A stretch of 46,831 bases of DNA from Prevotella sp. (GTDB lineage: Bacteria; Bacteroidota; Bacteroidia; Bacteroidales; Bacteroidaceae). Under the pieces are notes generated by a model that worked only from the letters and a program-made list of their open reading frames with translations, ran no database searches and was not told where the DNA came from. Positions 2,166-16,496 of this stretch are shown in pieces. Location: NCBI GenBank assembly GCA_017443345.1, contig JAFSNR010000010.1, positions 1 to 46,831 of the forward strand, written 5' to 3'. Both the position numbers and the translations under genes were made by a program. Each line of letters opens with the position of its first letter. Within the stretch, counting starts at the first letter, position 1.

Positions 2166-3387
2166 ACTGTTTAAGTCTACGGTAGAGTGTGCGGTCGGAG
2201 ATACCCAGTTCCTGAGCGGCCTTACGACGATTGCCGTGATTGCGCTCAAGCGCCTTCTCGAGCATCTGTTTGCTGATGTCATTGAGGTTCAGGCTCTCGG
2301 GTTCTCTCTCGGGTTCGATATATTCCTCTGCAAAGGCATCCTCGGCCGTCCCAACCGCTGGAATGGGATTGATAGGCGTGATAGGAGCCAGTTGCGTATT
2401 ATTGGTGATAGGCGCTGCGATGGCCTGCCCGCCACCTTGGACATCCTCGAGCTGCTTCTTGAGCAGGCTTACTTCGCGACGCATGTCGTTCACGTTGCCA
2501 CGAAGTTCGAAGAGTATCTTGTAGAGTATCTCGCGCTCGTTCTCAAACGAGTGGTCGCCACCTTCCTTATGGATAGTCACAAGCTGGGTTGACTCCTGAT
2601 CCTGAGGGATGAACTGGCTGAGCACGTCGGCCGTGATGTTGCGCTCAGGCGAGAGTACACTGATCTGCTCGGTGATGTTCTTCAGCTGGCGCACGTTGCC
2701 TGGCCACTTATAGCGCATCAGCAATTGCTTGGCTCCCTCGTCGAGCACCACGCGGTCCATCTTGTACTTCTCGGCCATCTGCATCGCAAAGAGTCGGAAG
2801 AGCAGGATGATGTCCTCGCCACGCTCACGAAGCGGCGGCATCTGGATGGGTATCGAGTTCAGACGATAGTAGAGGTCCTCGCGGAAACGTCCTTCGCTGA
2901 TGGCCTGACGGATATTCACGTTCGTGGCAGCCACGATACGCACGTCGGTCTTACGGATCTCAGTGCCTCCCACGGGGATATACTCTCCTGTCTCGAGCAC
3001 ACGCAGCAGTCGCGCCTGAGTAGCCAGCGGCAGCTCGCCCACCTCGTCGAGGAACAGCGTTCCCTTATTGGCCACACCGAAGTAGCCAGGTGAGTCGTTG
3101 ATGGCACCCGTATACGAACCCTTCACATGTCCGAAGAGCTCAGAGTCGATGGTGCCCTCTGGGATAGAGCCGCAGTTGATGGCAAAATACTTCTCACGTC
3201 GGCGAGGCGAGTTGTCGTGAATCACACGGGGGATGATCTCCTTACCCACTCCACTCTCTCCGAAGATGAGCACACTCAGGTCTGTGGGCGCCACTTGGAG
3301 GGCGACGTCCAGCGCACGGTTCAAAGCATCGCAGTTGCCCACGATATTATACCGTTGTTTGATGGCTTGAAGTTCTGTTGTCTTCAT
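2149..3387 (-). CDS. Sigma-54-interacting AAA+ transcriptional activator without receiver domain, Fis-type HTH
   Basis: 412 residues from the ATG at 3387. Domains: AAA+ core (about 15-260) with Walker A GESGVGKE (43-50), sigma-54 contact loop GSYTGA (80-85), Walker B LFLDEVGE (101-108) and LYYRLN; a variable linker; and a C-terminal Fis-like HTH (ISDRTLYRRLKQYGLEK). There is no N-terminal response-regulator receiver, which is usual for this Bacteroidales lineage. The contact loop is GSYTGA rather than GAFTGA. The start at 3387 is preferred over the in-frame codon at 3408 because relatives begin M..ELQ.IKQR and because a -7 element lies at 3396-3403, leaving no room for the longer form. It heads the lptE-TPR-secG operon. 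Confidence 0.9.
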   Translation of the reverse strand: MKTTELQAIKQRYNIVGNCDALNRALDVALQVAPTDLSVLIFGESGVGKEIIPRVIHDNSPRRREKYFAINCGSIPEGTIDSELFGHVKGSYTGAINDSPGYFGVANKGTLFLDEVGELPLATQARLLRVLETGEYIPVGGTEIRKTDVRIVAATNVNIRQAISEGRFREDLYYRLNSIPIQMPPLRERGEDIILLFRLFAMQMAEKYKMDRVVLDEGAKQLLMRYKWPGNVRQLKNITEQISVLSPERNITADVLSQFIPQDQESTQLVTIHKEGGDHSFENEREILYKILFELRGNVNDMRREVSLLKKQLEDVQGGGQAIAAPITNNTQLAPITPINPIPAVGTAEDAFAEEYIEPEREPESLNLNDISKQMLEKALERNHGNRRKAAQELGISDRTLYRRLKQYGLEK

Positions 3388-3395
3388 TGAGCTGA

Positions 3396-3403
3396 CAAAA
3401 TTA
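3396..3403 (-). promoter_or_regulatory. -7 element TAATTTTG of the sigma-54 activator/lptE/secG operon
   Basis: On the minus strand TAATTTTG matches the Bacteroidetes TAnnTTTG -7 box. It ends 8 bp before the start codon at 3387, so the transcript would be leaderless or nearly so. No perfect -33 TTTG is seen at 19-21 bp. Confidence 0.6.
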
Positions 3404-3458
3404 CACATTATTTCTGAATTATCTGCAATTTTGGCAGATTTTTAACTCAAAATCACGT

Positions 3459-4457
3459 TTATTTCTTCTCGAGCTTGATTAAGAGCAGTCCGATGGCCGT
3501 CCAAATGAGCTCACGGACACGCACGATCAGCGCCACGAAGATACCAGCCTGAGCCGACAGACTGAGACCCTCGGCCGACATCAGGAAGCCTCCCTCGCGA
3601 CCACCCAGTTGCAGCGGCATGAAGAAGAGCATGTTGGCAAAAAGCGTCGTGAAGGCATAAATGAGGATGCACTGCGGAATGGTGACCTCGGGCATGATGA
3701 CCAGCAGGATAAAGTAGATCTCGAGCGTGGAGAAGAGTCGGCAAAGCAGTTCGAGCACGACGGCAGTCACGAACGTACGCGGATTCTGGTTGTGCAGCGC
3801 TGCTATCTGTGCATCGACCTCAGCGAGCTTGTCCCTGTTGCGCTCCACGAACGGCTGTGCCCAGCGCTTCACCATCGGGAAGTGACTCAGGATGTTCATG
3901 CCCGTCACAGCGATGCCCTTCTTATAGCCTCGGGTGAAGAACCAGATGACGACGAGACAGACGATCGCGATGATCGGCAGCAGGATACAAGCCAAGGTGG
4001 TCATCGACTGCGTCAGCACATAGAGCCCTACGGACAAGAGCCAGAACCAGAAGTGGCTGTAGATATGCGTCATCACGAAGAGGATGACAGACGAGGAAGC
4101 CTTGGCGGTGCCGATCTTGGGCGAGAGCGACATGATGCGATAGGGCTCACCACCCATCAGTCCACCAGGCGTGGCATAGTTCAGGGCAAAGGCCGAGATG
4201 GTGATCTTGTAGAGCCACCAGAAGCCTACGCGGCATTGACGGCAGACACCTCGCTCACCACCGATGCTGTCGATGATGATATACCACGTGGCCGTATTGA
4301 AGATGTAGAGGAAGCCCCATAGGGCAATCACAGCGAAAAACCAGTAGCCGGCATGCTTCAGCCCAGCCCAGACTTCTTGGAAGTCGAGCTGCGTCACCAT
4401 GATGATCAGCACCAGGAGACCGAAGATGAAGAAGCCGTTCTGGTATTTCTTTTTCAT
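3459..4457 (-). CDS. Flippase-like / lysylphosphatidylglycerol synthase TM-region family membrane protein
   Basis: 332 residues with about eight hydrophobic segments, beginning MKKKYQNGFFIFGLLVLIIM. Motifs such as LNYATPGGLMGGEPYR and the late FMPLQLGGREGG are typical of the UPF0104/AglD-type family (membrane part of MprF-like proteins). Members are integral membrane proteins linked to lipid or polyprenyl-phosphate handling; the substrate of this one is unknown. The start codon overlaps the stop of the PdxA-like gene by one base (TAATG), so the two are coupled. An aminoacyl-lipid synthase domain is absent, so it is not a complete MprF. Confidence 0.8.
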   Translation of the reverse strand: MKKKYQNGFFIFGLLVLIIMVTQLDFQEVWAGLKHAGYWFFAVIALWGFLYIFNTATWYIIIDSIGGERGVCRQCRVGFWWLYKITISAFALNYATPGGLMGGEPYRIMSLSPKIGTAKASSSVILFVMTHIYSHFWFWLLSVGLYVLTQSMTTLACILLPIIAIVCLVVIWFFTRGYKKGIAVTGMNILSHFPMVKRWAQPFVERNRDKLAEVDAQIAALHNQNPRTFVTAVVLELLCRLFSTLEIYFILLVIMPEVTIPQCILIYAFTTLFANMLFFMPLQLGGREGGFLMSAEGLSLSAQAGIFVALIVRVRELIWTAIGLLLIKLEKK

Positions 4458-6669: not shown

Positions 6670-10351
<3,682 letters not shown>

Positions 10352-10353
<2 letters not shown>

Positions 10354-12639: not shown

Positions 12640-13533
12640 TCAATTCTTGGTTGGTATTTGGTAGTCGATAGCCGAGTTCCAGCTGTCATCCACTGTGATG
12701 GTGAAGCTCACCTTCGTCACCTTCCCGTCGAAGATATTCCCACGACAGGTCGTGATGCAGTTTCGGCGGATGGGGATGCTGTCGATGACGGTCGACGTCA
12801 GCAGGTCGCCCCCCTGAAACGTGCCGATGGTCGCCTCCAGATAAGCATCGTCCTGCCAAGGGATGGTGTAGATCTCCAGTGGCGTCTCGCTCTTGTCGAA
12901 CCAAGCCGCCTGCTTCGACTTCACGTTGCCATAGCCACTCTGCGCATCAATCGAGCCCGAGCCGCCCTCATAATAGATCCTGATGCTGTCGGCCTTCTCT
13001 GGGACGGCATCCTCGTTGACGAACCTCACCTTTGCCACCACCCGTCTCAAGTTCATCTCAAGGTTGATGGCACTGTCGCCCACCGTCAGCGCCTTCGAGG
13101 CAAAGAAGGTGTCCGTATAGCCCTTAGCATTCGTAAACGAGATCGACTCGTGTTTGCTGGCCGTTCGCTTGTTCACGCTGGGGTTTCCGTTCGAGCTATG
13201 CGCCACGATGGCCAGCCGGTAATTGCCCAACGGCAGCGTAAACCTCCCTTCGCCAAAGCCCTCATCGCCCAGCTCCTGGTTCTTCTGGTCCACCCTTTCG
13301 CCGTTCTCGTCGAAGACCACAAAATTCAAGTGGTTACACACATCCTCAATGTTTGCCCTCGTCGCTGCACTGAACGGCATCTGCTCAAAACTCATGACAC
13401 GAACCACCACGTTCGCCTCCCCATCGTCAGCGTCGCCCGAACGCCCACCCAGGTTCATTTTCTCACACGATGCCACCAACAGCACCACACCAAACACAAT
13501 TGCCCCCAAAAGGCCGAAATGCTTGTTCTTCAT
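12640..13533 (-). CDS. FimB/Mfa2-type fimbrial anchor lipoprotein
   Basis: 297 residues. Signal peptide with lipobox LLVASC (Cys at about 23), then a beta-rich body beginning ANVVVRVMSFEQMPFSAATRANIEDVCNHLNFVVFDENGERV, the pattern of the Mfa2/FimB family, which anchor type V (fimbrillin) pili to the outer membrane in Porphyromonas and relatives. The second domain carries RRVVAKVRFVNED.. and closes with an immunoglobulin-like strand set. No fimbrillin gene is adjacent in the window, so this may be a solitary anchor or an adhesin-tip relative. A -7 element lies at 13576-13583. A long plus-strand frame over this gene and cysE is a shadow. Confidence 0.8.
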   Translation of the reverse strand: MKNKHFGLLGAIVFGVVLLVASCEKMNLGGRSGDADDGEANVVVRVMSFEQMPFSAATRANIEDVCNHLNFVVFDENGERVDQKNQELGDEGFGEGRFTLPLGNYRLAIVAHSSNGNPSVNKRTASKHESISFTNAKGYTDTFFASKALTVGDSAINLEMNLRRVVAKVRFVNEDAVPEKADSIRIYYEGGSGSIDAQSGYGNVKSKQAAWFDKSETPLEIYTIPWQDDAYLEATIGTFQGGDLLTSTVIDSIPIRRNCITTCRGNIFDGKVTKVSFTITVDDSWNSAIDYQIPTKN

Positions 13534-13575
13534 CTCGTAAAAATTTAAGAGTTAAACAATAAATAATATCACCGA

Positions 13576-13583
13576 CAAAAGTA
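13576..13583 (-). promoter_or_regulatory. -7 element TACTTTTG of the fimbrial lipoprotein gene
   Basis: Minus-strand TACTTTTG, 42 bp before the start codon at 13533. TTTG words lie at 12 and 23 bp, neither ideal. Confidence 0.55.
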
Positions 13584-13780
13584 AGACAATTTCATCAAAC
13601 AATCGCCAAACCGCCGAATTATTTAAGATATATTCACAATTAAGCAGCTCAATGAGCGCATTATACCTATAATATCACTCACTATTTGTCTTTAGGGTGA
13701 AATACTTAATAGGTATGAATAACAAACTTCTCTTATCGGCGGAAATCCCCCTAATGAAGGACGGATAATGAGAAAAATAG
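13584..13780. other. AT-rich spacer, no gene seen
   Basis: The whole gap 13534-13881 is 348 bp. Besides the promoters and hairpin listed separately, this part has only short frames, no tRNA-like fold and no clear repeat. It may mark the left border of the palindrome-bracketed module. Confidence 0.5.
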
Positions 13781-13833
13781 AACGATGTAGGTCGAAATCT
13801 CGATAAAAATTCAAGATTTCGACCTACATCGTT
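13781..13833 (+). repeat. Left 20-bp palindrome
   Basis: Arm 13781-13800 (AACGATGTAGGTCGAAATCT) pairs perfectly with 13814-13833; the loop is 13 nt with ATAAAAA. The right arm runs into the -33 TTTG of the ATPase promoter, so the palindrome could act as an operator. Confidence 0.95.
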
Positions 13834-13863
13834 TGCAATTCTCAGAAAAAAGAAGTATATTTG
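13832..13863 (+). promoter_or_regulatory. Promoter of the ATPase-nuclease gene
   Basis: -33 TTTG (13832-13835), 20-bp spacer, -7 TATATTTG (13856-13863). The first two bases of the -33 box are the last two of the left palindrome. Confidence 0.85.
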
Positions 13864-13881
13864 CACCAAAATTTATAAGAT

Positions 13882-15354
13882 ATGGCAGCTATCATTGGTA
13901 GGAAACAGGAACAAAATGAACTCAGCCGTTTGTATCATTCGGACGAAGCAGAGATGGTAGTGGTATATGGCAGGCGTCGCGTAGGGAAGACTTATCTTGT
14001 CAATCAAGTGTTCGCCAAAACTGGATTTGCCTTTAAGATTACAGGACTCTATAAACAGAATATGTCTGTACAGTTGAAAAACTTCTCTCTGGCTCTCCAA
14101 GAGTATTTCCATAAAGAAGAAAGCAAGCAACCAGCCTCATGGATGGATGCCTTTGCCTTATTGAAAATCTACCTCAATAATAACAAAACAGGTGCCAAAC
14201 GTGTACTCTTTTTCGATGAGTTGCCTTGGATGGACACAAAAGGAAGTCGTTTTTTGAATGCCTTTGAATGGTTCTGGAACGGATGGGGATGTGCTCAGGA
14301 CGATTTGTTGCTTGTAGCATGCGGCAGCGCCACCAATTGGATTATCAATAAGTTTTTTCAGCAAAAGGGAGGCCTTTACAACCGCGCCAACAGTAAGATG
14401 TATCTCAGTCCGTTCACATTAGCAGAGACGGAGCAATACCTACAGAAACAAGGATTTGAAATGGAACGCTATGACATCGCCCAAGTCTATATGATTATGG
14501 GAGGCATACCGTACTACCTCAAACAATTGGAGCCAGGACGTCCACTCGCAGACAATATAGACAACTGTTTCTTTAAGAAGAACGGCAAGCTGTGGGATGA
14601 GTTTGACCATCTGTATGAGACACTCTTTGATCAGTCCGAACTATATCTTAGAATAGTCGAAGCACTGGCAACAAAGCGAGTAGGACTGACCAGAGACGAG
14701 GTCGTGACAACAACCAAATTGCCTGACAACGGTAAATTGTCAAAGGCATTGAAAGATTTGGTGAAATGCGGGTTTGTAAGAGATTACGTCTATTTCGGCA
14801 AAAAAAGTAAGAGCAAGTCTTATCAGTTGGCAGACTTCTACACGTTGTTTTATCTTCGATTCATCAAGGATAACTATGGGCAGGACGAACATTTCTGGAC
14901 CCACATGCTCGACAATCCCAAGAAGACTGCCTGGCTGGGCTACAGCTTCGAACAGTTGGTTAAGGACCACATAGGACAAGTAAAACGGGCTTTGGGTATA
15001 GCATCTGTACTGACTCAGCAATCAAGCTGGTTTGTCACCAAGCGTACTGTTGATGCCTGTTCGGATAATGGAGAGGCTGACAGTAACGAGATAAATGGCG
15101 CACAGATTGATTTACTGATTGACAGGCGAGACTGCGCCATTAATGTCTGTGAAGCAAAGTTCTCTGGGGGCGAGTTTGTTATCGACAAGGACTATTCACT
15201 TAAACTACGAAACAAAATCATGGCATTCAAGGCTGCCACTAGTACTCCTAAAGCACTGGTTCTGACAATGATAACCACATTTGGAGTTAAGAAAAACCAG
15301 TATAGTGGGAATGTCAAGCAAGAAGTAGTATTGGATGACCTTTTTGTAGGATAG
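13882..15354 (+). CDS. AAA/STAND (MNS-type) ATPase with C-terminal PD-(D/E)XK nuclease domain (DUF234)
   Basis: 490 residues. Residues about 1-230 form a P-loop ATPase: Walker A VYGRRRVGKTYLV (about 28-40), Walker B RVLFFDELPWMD (about 106-117), then LVACGSATNWI as sensor. About 280-345 is a winged-helix-like region (TRDEVVTTTKLPDNGKLSKALKDLVKCGFV). The C terminus has the PD-(D/E)XK pattern D410...E424-A-K426 (QIDLLIDRR then CEAKF), matching the DUF234 restriction-endonuclease fold fused to archaeal-type ATPases. Functions of such proteins are mostly unknown; defence, toxin-like or selfish roles have been proposed for STAND proteins. It has its own promoter and is flanked on both sides by the same palindrome. 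Neighbours (fimbrial lipoprotein, sstT) are unrelated, consistent with insertion. Confidence 0.88.
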   Translation: MAAIIGRKQEQNELSRLYHSDEAEMVVVYGRRRVGKTYLVNQVFAKTGFAFKITGLYKQNMSVQLKNFSLALQEYFHKEESKQPASWMDAFALLKIYLNNNKTGAKRVLFFDELPWMDTKGSRFLNAFEWFWNGWGCAQDDLLLVACGSATNWIINKFFQQKGGLYNRANSKMYLSPFTLAETEQYLQKQGFEMERYDIAQVYMIMGGIPYYLKQLEPGRPLADNIDNCFFKKNGKLWDEFDHLYETLFDQSELYLRIVEALATKRVGLTRDEVVTTTKLPDNGKLSKALKDLVKCGFVRDYVYFGKKSKSKSYQLADFYTLFYLRFIKDNYGQDEHFWTHMLDNPKKTAWLGYSFEQLVKDHIGQVKRALGIASVLTQQSSWFVTKRTVDACSDNGEADSNEINGAQIDLLIDRRDCAINVCEAKFSGGEFVIDKDYSLKLRNKIMAFKAATSTPKALVLTMITTFGVKKNQYSGNVKQEVVLDDLFVG

Positions 15355-15356
15355 TC

Positions 15357-15410
15357 AACAGATGTGGGTCGAAATCTTCATAAAAAAACAAGATTTCGAC
15401 CTACATCGTT
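15357..15410 (+). repeat. Right palindrome, same arms as 13781-13833
   Basis: GATGTGGGTCGAAATCTT (15361-15378) pairs with 15390-15407 with one G-T position; the 11-nt loop again contains ATAAAAA. The right arm is identical over 20 bp to the right arm of the left palindrome. It begins 2 bp after the ATPase stop. No T-run follows, so it is not a simple terminator. Confidence 0.93.
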
Positions 15411-15472
15411 ACATTAATCAGAAAGCAATGGGCGAGGATTTTTCTATCTCTTATAATCATGCAGTATGGACA

Positions 15473-16496
15473 TCACATTTTCCCTTGCTTCATGCGCTCG
15501 TAGTATTCGGCGGTGGCGGTGAAGAAAACGTCGCCGCTGGAGTTGAGGGCGGTCTCGACGGAGTCCTGCACGACACCGATGATGGAGCCGACAGCGACGG
15601 CCTGCATGGCGATGTCGTTGCTGATGCCGAAGAAGGAGCATGCCATCGGAACGAGCAGCAGCGAGCCGCCAGCCACGCCTGAGCAGCCACAGGCTCCCAG
15701 GGCGGAAATCACGCAGAGGAAAAGGGCTGCACCGAAGGTCACCTCAATGCCAAGCGTATGGGCGACGGCGAGGGTCATCACCGTGATGGTCACAGCGGCT
15801 CCGTCCATATTGATCGTGGCGCCAAGGGGGATGCTGACGGAATAGAAATCCTCGTCGAGGCCGAGCTTCTTGCAGAGGGCCATAGGTGGTGAAGATCGAA
15901 AGGCCGTTCTCAGCCACAGTCGAGAACACGAGTCCGAGGATTCCGAAGGGGGCAAACTGGATGACCCACTTCACGGTCAGGGTGATGACCCCTGAGAAGT
16001 CGTCGACCACGCTGATGGTCTTCGGGCTGGCCACGAGCTTCAGGGCGATTCCGACGATGATAGACCAGAAGAGGATGCCGATATAGTTGGCATTGGCAAC
16101 GGCCTTGACGGGGTTCTCGACCATACTCGTCAGCAGATTCATAAACACGTCGGCCAGCGAGCCCGGGCCACTACCCTCGACGGCATCGGTCAGGTTGAGC
16201 GTCACGGGAAACAGGAAGCTGCCCACCACAGCGAGAACGGCAGCGATGAACGTACTGAGCATGTAGCGCGAGATAACCGTGCGGAATCTGGGGCCCAGTC
16301 CGCCTCCGGCCTTCGCTATCGACGCAGCCACCAGCACAGCCACCAGCACCGGGGCAATCGCCTTCAGCGCACTGACAAACACCTTTCCCAGGATGCCAAT
16401 AGCCGTCCACTCAGGCACCAGCAGTCCCAGCACAGCACCAATCATCAGTCCGACGAGGATGCGGAGCATCAGGCTCACCCCCGTCCATTTCTTCAG
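15473..16496 (-). pseudogene. sstT: sstT pseudogene (Na+/serine-threonine symporter) with internal deletion and frameshift
   Basis: The N-terminal part (VSLMLRILVGLMIGAVLG... to LSIFTTYG) and the C-terminal part ([30 protein letters not shown]... to MKQGKM) are both clear SstT, but in different frames. They meet near 15890 at the shared word TATGGCC. About 58 residues present in SstT relatives are missing, including the FFTRSSAANIP hairpin that binds substrate and sodium. A single deletion between two TATGGC copies, which lie in different codon phases, explains both the loss and the frameshift. At the expected start, relatives have MKKWTG but here the codon is CTG (16494-16496); the next in-frame start is GTG 16478. 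Two independent lesions make a functional transporter unlikely. Confidence 0.9.

Follow-up and report, generated by a model that had tools for sequence, protein, structure and literature searches.

A palindrome at the promoters of PDC-S27 ATPase-nuclease genes of Bacteroidales as a putative self-operator

Why should a single ATPase-nuclease gene of a Prevotella genome stand between two copies of one palindrome? The arrangement lies in the window, i.e., the whole stretch of 46,831 nucleotides that we analysed, and a sequence-only reading of it had offered two answers: a mobile or selfish unit of one gene, bounded by terminal inverted repeats, or an ATPase-nuclease that recognises its own palindromes. 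The presence of the same palindrome on both sides of the gene is real (Table 1). The upstream palindrome consists of perfect arms (AACGATGTAGGTCGAAATCT and its complement) on either side of an A-rich spacer of 13 nt. In the downstream palindrome, a direct copy of 50 nt, the right arm (15391-15410) is a perfect match over its 20 nt, and the left arm (15358-15377) has mismatches at 3 of 20 positions. Two hairpins with shared arms had been described; the outer arms of the pair indeed form perfect 20-bp inverted repeats, but the right hairpin on its own is imperfect.

Table 1. Features of the PDC-S27 locus, in positions of the window
Feature	Position	Strand	Basis or remark
Relic-like stretch	13736..13780	+	Resembles the 3' tail of a recombinase-like gene preceding solo palindromes in G129 and G095
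Upstream palindrome, putative self-operator	13781..13833	.	Perfect 20-nt arms; family comparison
Putative Bacteroidota-type promoter	13832..13863	+	TTTG 13832-13835, 20 nt, TATATTTG 13856-13863
PDC-S27 gene, 490 aa	13882..15354	+	PADLOC profile, Pfam, alignment, predicted structure
Downstream palindrome, direct copy of the upstream one, 90% identical	15361..15410	.	

Promoters of Bacteroidota have the consensus TTTG / TAnnTTTG. At the putative promoter of the gene, the -33-like TTTG covers the final two bases of the upstream palindrome, so that the palindrome does run into the -33 box as had been noticed, and the -7 box sits 49 bp from the palindrome centre. Around the downstream palindrome, no -7 box was found at 20-160 bp on either strand. 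The gene had been called AT-rich, and its GC content is in fact 43%, lower than the 51% of the window and the 56% and 60% of the neighbouring genes, which encode a fimbrillin-type anchor and, in two frames, a sodium:dicarboxylate symporter. The two frames of the symporter gene (15473-16478, minus strand) overlap; this gene was probably broken by a deletion, because relatives (e.g., G018) are about 156 nt longer at that place. Elsewhere in the window, a single frame of 1227 residues (6670-10353, plus strand) combines a family-2 glycosyltransferase, DUF4922 and a SpoIID domain.

We searched the 4.16-Mb genome for the 17-nt core of the arm, allowing up to 2 mismatches. It occurred at 4 places, all of them at the two palindromes of the window; the control, the same pattern read backwards, occurred once. 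A palindrome scattered through the genome with no link to such ATPases, an outcome considered in the sequence-only reading, is not what we found: the arm is present only at this gene.

Based on profile searches, the product of the gene can be classed as a full-length candidate defence protein of PDC-S27. The PADLOC profile PDC-S27 (PDLC04984) matched residues 1-488 of 490, i.e., the full length, with an E value of 3.8e-193. Pfam gave ATPase_2 (PF01637) with 51.5 bits, above the curated cut-off of 33.2. The protein had previously been labelled a DUF234 ATPase, a label that does not hold at E <= 0.1, where DUF234 (PF03008) is absent from its Pfam matches; no transposase domain is found among its Pfam matches either. 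In the AlphaFold2 model (mean pLDDT 94.6), the predicted domains are an AAA ATPase (residues ~1-250), a winged helix (~252-316) and a PD-(D/E)XK nuclease (~346-490), their limits being read by eye from the predicted secondary structure. When 73 family members were aligned (all but the window protein itself being 37-56% identical to it), the Walker residues, R168, D410, E424 and K426 were invariant. We assign D410, E424 and K426 to the PD-(D/E)XK motif D...E-x-K, which would then be intact. Among solved structures, two archaeal ATPases of this family come closest, followed by CED-4, plant NLR domains and Orc1/Cdc6, and SSO1545 (2fna) is among the top structural matches. These matches span mainly residues 1-332 and barely cover the nuclease part.

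To place the palindrome in a family context, relatives were gathered from 53 loci of genome contigs, from paralogues in the window's own genome and from a profile search of family-level genomes. The family profile had a match in 189 of the 399 genomes, part of which were used for the gene sample. This sample, derived mostly from metagenomes of gut and rumen Bacteroidales, comprised 138 copies, 133 of them distinct (5 duplicate genes were left out), and 132 with 180 bp of upstream DNA (1 gene with less was left out). Within these 180 bp, an inverted repeat with a score of at least 10 was found for 96 of the 132 family genes, compared with 1/132 after dinucleotide shuffling and 5/59 other genes from the same loci. 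Among the 36 family genes scoring below 10, several resemble weak versions by eye and some do not. With a looser measure of the repeat, score 8 was reached by 119/132 and score 11 by 89/132 family genes. A palindrome ahead of the gene is a rule of the family, and most of the sampled relatives carry one, with unlike sequences in different protein lineages. The earlier concern that the palindrome might be absent around orthologues did not come true, though its sequence changes with the lineage.

The position of these repeats was then expressed relative to the promoter. A TAnnTTTG -7 box is located within 60 bp of the start in 104 of the 132 family genes, and the other 28 were left out of the phasing count. 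In 88 of the 104, a repeat scoring at least 8 has its centre 25-75 bp ahead of the -7 box; 16 have none in this zone. The distances from centre to -7 box are trimodal, with 26 genes at about 38 bp, 21 at about 48 bp and 24 at about 59 bp (71 of the 88), and the three groups lie one helical turn apart. By the Rayleigh test with a period of 10.5 bp, p was ~7e-16 for all genes, ~1e-6 for clusters at 60% identity (n = 36; 28 in groups) and 0.005 for clusters at 55% identity (n = 20; 15 in groups); almost the same genes served first to notice the groups and then to test them, the 10.5-bp period alone came from outside knowledge, and periods of 9 to 12 bp score as well. A first pass over a wider zone had given the same distance groups with more noise, and the repeat picked in that pass overlies the -7 box itself in nine genes.

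Repeats become less frequent with distance. The near zone contains a repeat in 85 of 101 genes, and the successive zones further upstream in 27, 23, 21, 12 and 11 of 101. Of the 27 repeats in the next zone, 17 lie near 90, 100 or 112 bp, i.e., about 53 bp further upstream. The tandem arrays at L153, L141, L113 and L114 have a repeat interval of 53-54 bp, or about five turns; other multiple copies are spaced 84 or 156-164 bp apart. A repeat that is located at the gene's own promoter and keeps a set helical phase points to a DNA site, the bound protein of which would act on the promoter; the simplest case would be a self-operator that the ATPase reads.

Two other families were compared in the same manner. 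In PF09820, another AAA/PD-(D/E)XK family, score 8 was reached at 5/24 and score 11 at 2/24 loci (2 of 26 loci dropped), with a repeat in the phased zone in 1/13. PDC-S01, a nearer family chosen as a control, proved to be intermediate, with 18/29 loci at score 8, 11/29 at score 11 (1 of 30 loci dropped) and 7/22 with a repeat in the phased zone. Promoter inverted repeats are perhaps a wider habit of such ATPase-nucleases. On viral contigs, carriage of the family gene was not confirmed in any case. Among 50,697 phage records, 7 contain a distant relative (less than 60% identity), as do 128 among 72,556 plasmid records. Eight phage and plasmid records were examined: in seven there is an upstream inverted repeat with a score of at least 9 within 260 bp, and L282 is without one. 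In L278 and L280, which are near-identical, the repeats lie further upstream than usual. Of the inverted repeats near the promoters of the PDC-S01 loci (L283-L312), some lie over the -7 box.

We further compared the palindromes with one another. Those outside the three distance groups were dropped (72/88 kept, 71 aligned). The centred alignment of 71 palindromes (effective number 37) showed a half-site core with C at position 14 and AA at positions 10-11 from the centre; the middle is an A/T tract, and some two helical turns separate the half-sites. At arm positions 13-17, 91-100% of the palindromes are symmetric, although positions 13 and 17 carry less than 0.1 bit of consensus. At least 10 nt are shared between the palindromes of 93% of the gene pairs at 90-100% protein identity (43 pairs) and 85% of those at 80-90% (33 pairs), compared with 4% at 40-50% (4,698 pairs). 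Judged from these comparisons, the palindrome differs by protein lineage but stays symmetric, and it follows the protein. A covariation analysis between residues and half-sites did not set the winged helix apart, which holds 11 of the top 50 pairs against 6.7 expected.

If another host regulator controlled such genes in common, the palindrome could be its operator; the phasing to the promoter would suit any regulator, and the half-site core is common across the family. We nevertheless consider this quite improbable. In none of the 29 within-genome pairs of family genes do the two palindromes have a run of 10 nt or more in common, and the window's genome has the arm at this gene alone; a single shared regulator would therefore need to read many unlike sites. 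Because the within-genome pairs listed are only 39-57% identical in protein, i.e., diverged in protein too, their unlike sites by themselves show only that the host imposes no common site.

A role in RNA was weighed as well. Terminators around acquired genes are common, and strong stems with A- or T-rich spacers, as found here, could be RNA hairpins or transcription terminators that bracket an acquired gene. The upstream stem, however, is already complete ahead of the -7 box, so the gene's own transcript would be without it. On the sense strand, the middle tract of the palindromes is an A run in 36, a T run in 24 and neither in 28; the use of both A and T runs, together with the place upstream of the -7 box, argues for DNA rather than RNA. 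Moreover, a phase of 10-10.5 bp suits helical DNA, and Rfam gave no match in 13300-15900. The chance that the stems act as RNA structures is thus very slight in our judgement.

Palindromes of the window's type were also found away from family genes. The exact type, GGTCGAAATC-N-GATTTCGACC, is present in 6 of 398 genomes of the window's genus. It occurs twice each in G000 and G034, flanking the gene, and as a solo palindrome in G129, G095, G643 and G776, where the 7.5-10 kb examined contain no family gene. Among the 399 family genomes, GTCGRAATCN{8,22}GATTYCGAC was found at 11 places in 7 genomes. Eight of these adjoin a family gene or its relic (two in G000, four in G346, one in G318 and, next to a 49-residue gene relic, one in G289); those in G466, G533 and G178 differ in their spacers, and in the stretches examined no family gene passed the search threshold. 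Solo palindromes in relatives suggest that the genes are gained and lost while the palindromic sites can stay.

One near-identical pair of alleles, the only one of its kind, allowed a closer view of gain and loss. With flanks 97% and 99% identical, G346 has palindrome-gene-palindrome where G318 has an unlike spacer of 203 bp, and the changed segment extends beyond the palindromes, by 46 bp at its start and by about 100 bp at its end. The check for empty sites in relatives thus yielded this single pair and no precise edge at the palindromes. At a second locus, the ATPase genes of the two species are different, and each species retains palindromes of the type that belongs to the other's gene, although that gene is absent there. 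A further seven genomes of their genus have the neighbouring gene; no family gene was present in the stretch examined, and the exact GTCGRAATC palindrome was absent anywhere in these genomes. An unoccupied version of the window site was not found among relatives, which have the symporter gene in common with the window but no counterpart of the stretch on the palindrome side; at the solo palindromes of G643 and G776, the flanks are too diverged in the relatives searched for the origin of these copies to be traced. We also observed an interspersed repeat of up to ~180 bp (L141, ~3242-3433) at about twenty places each in G318 and G346, often at contig ends, and stretches of ~45 and ~41 bp (L182, ~3685-3730; L181, ~3975-4017) that recur many times across genomes of the genus.

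Solo palindromes, and the mutual retention of palindromes at the second locus of G346 and G318, are also what might be seen if palindrome and gene moved together as a single-gene mobile element, the nuclease inserting beside the palindrome or duplicating it, with solo palindromes as empty or vacated sites. The occurrence of the gene in unrelated contexts among loci of 86-95% DNA identity and the palindromes of L136, identical over 57 nt on both sides of the gene, fit such mobility too. Even so, we regard it as unlikely. A like copy within 300 bp downstream was detected for just 7 of 85 family genes (three more, L005, L016 and L017, were recognised by eye), and the edges of the segment in the G346/G318 pair lie outside the palindromes. 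Directly outside the palindromes of four double-palindrome loci, a search for short ungapped repeats gave 0, 3, 0 and 0 nt, i.e., none longer than 3 nt at the junctions. There is no transposase domain; some shared stretches exceed the unit (L021/L022 to -789, L010/L011 to -176); and mobility does not predict a helical phase relative to the promoter. The single-gene mobile or selfish unit of the sequence-only reading is hence not borne out, and a transposon with terminal inverted repeats was dropped as the main reading in view of the rare downstream copies and of a changed segment that does not end at the palindromes. A homing endonuclease gene was rejected on another ground: whole palindromes stand on both sides, so the recognition site, if the palindrome is that site, is not split. 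The downstream copy of the window would rather be a rare duplicate of the same putative binding site than the end of a jumping element.

The DNA preceding some of the palindromes raised the question of a recombinase. The relic-like stretch of the window, taken together with the palindrome, is 80% identical over 100 nt and 79% over 97 nt to G129/G095, where a recombinase-like 3' tail precedes the solo palindromes, and in L005 a relic of the tail follows the palindrome. Inspection of L122, L123 and L005 showed 3' tails of a degenerate recombinase-like gene adjoining window-type palindromes. The palindromes could accordingly be attachment or end sites of a recombinase element, with the ATPase gene as a passenger, but we hold this to be highly improbable. 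Strong matches to the 49-residue recombinase tail were confined, in the loci that we searched, to the neighbourhood of palindromes of the window's lineage (G129, G095 and L005); weak matches were obtained in L104 and L138. Palindromes, in contrast, precede the gene family-wide, and the tail search found no recombinase gene near the solo palindromes of G643 and G776.

A -7 box is mostly lacking near the additional copies: for nine downstream and four solo copies, a -7 box within 20-160 bp was found in three. For the downstream copy of L014, the -7 box is at 80.0 bp. In L011 (~3448-3530), exactly 48.0 bp separate the downstream palindrome from the -7 box of the RhuM-like frame that it precedes, which is the register of the palindrome at the ATPase gene's own promoter. 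In G643 (L181, 4630-4680), a PF09820/PF08011 ATPase-nuclease gene has its -7 box 91.0 bp after the window-type solo palindrome, a distance also seen for second copies in the PDC-S27 family.

We think it probable, with room for doubt, that the upstream palindrome serves this gene alone as a DNA operator and is read by the gene's own product. The ATPase is proposed as the reader because the site is private and travels with the gene. That an ATPase-nuclease might recognise its own palindromes, as suggested at the outset, gains indirect support from upstream palindromes that are lineage-specific and appear to keep a fixed helical phase. In this scheme of self-control, a dimer or ring of the ATPase would bind the two half-sites via the winged helix and, from one fixed face of the helix, touch or block RNA polymerase; sites lying over the -33 or -7 box would favour repression. 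Control of the gene by its own product would keep a DNA-cutting, defence-like protein at a safe level, and a signal, perhaps invading DNA, would change the ATP state and alter the control. A pure operator does not account for the downstream and solo copies, most of which have no -7 box nearby. A wider proposal, which we make tentatively and with considerable doubt, is that PDC-S27 unites a sensor ATPase, a sequence-specific transcription factor and a nuclease; the palindrome would be operator and nuclease site at once, the sites would outlast the genes, and elements with the same address would control or exclude each other.

With a defined DNA core for each protein and many natural pairs of unlike proteins and sites, the binding target and the timing of switch-on are directly testable. 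Such an operator would show how a one-gene nuclease system stays safe without a separate regulator. In the open literature, with subscription papers and bioRxiv preprints outside the scope of the search, we recognised no report of these palindromes.

Several known systems share parts of this arrangement. RAYT/REP systems have one gene with palindromes and solo palindromes elsewhere; we tried this model and rejected it, since the protein has no HUH transposase domain among its Pfam matches and the genome has no palindrome family, the arm being found at only 4 places. Orc1/Cdc6 initiators bind inverted DNA boxes and have the fold of AAA ATPase plus winged helix that is predicted for the window protein, in which a nuclease domain follows.

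PDC-S27 itself is a PADLOC single-gene defence candidate, described as an ATPase with PD-(D/E)XK, the composition predicted for the window protein, which matches the profile over its full length. The description (PMC12988326) counts 3,503 in archaea and 4,562 in bacteria and gives the candidates as unvalidated for anti-phage defence; the word 'palindrom' was not found in that paper, and the text consulted mentions no promoter palindrome. In type II toxin-antitoxin systems, promoter inverted repeats are bound by the gene product (PMC3874152); for the window, such binding is only proposed, and the unit is one gene with no partner, unlike a toxin with its antitoxin. Restriction-modification systems controlled by C proteins likewise contain a dangerous nuclease under an autogenous operator (putative in our case), and operator-based incompatibility has been described for them (PMC3874152). 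In those systems a separate small control protein reads the site, whereas no such gene adjoins in the window and a predicted winged helix is part of the nuclease polypeptide. The STAND/AAA regulator IniR combines an SSO1545-like ATPase domain with DNA binding and acts on a promoter, and SSO1545 is a top structural match of the window protein too; IniR controls iniBAC and has LuxR-like and MalT-like domains, with no nuclease described in the text consulted (PMC5760070), whereas the window protein has a predicted one. In their way of working, C proteins and ATPase regulators such as IniR are the nearest parallels to the putative self-operator of PDC-S27.
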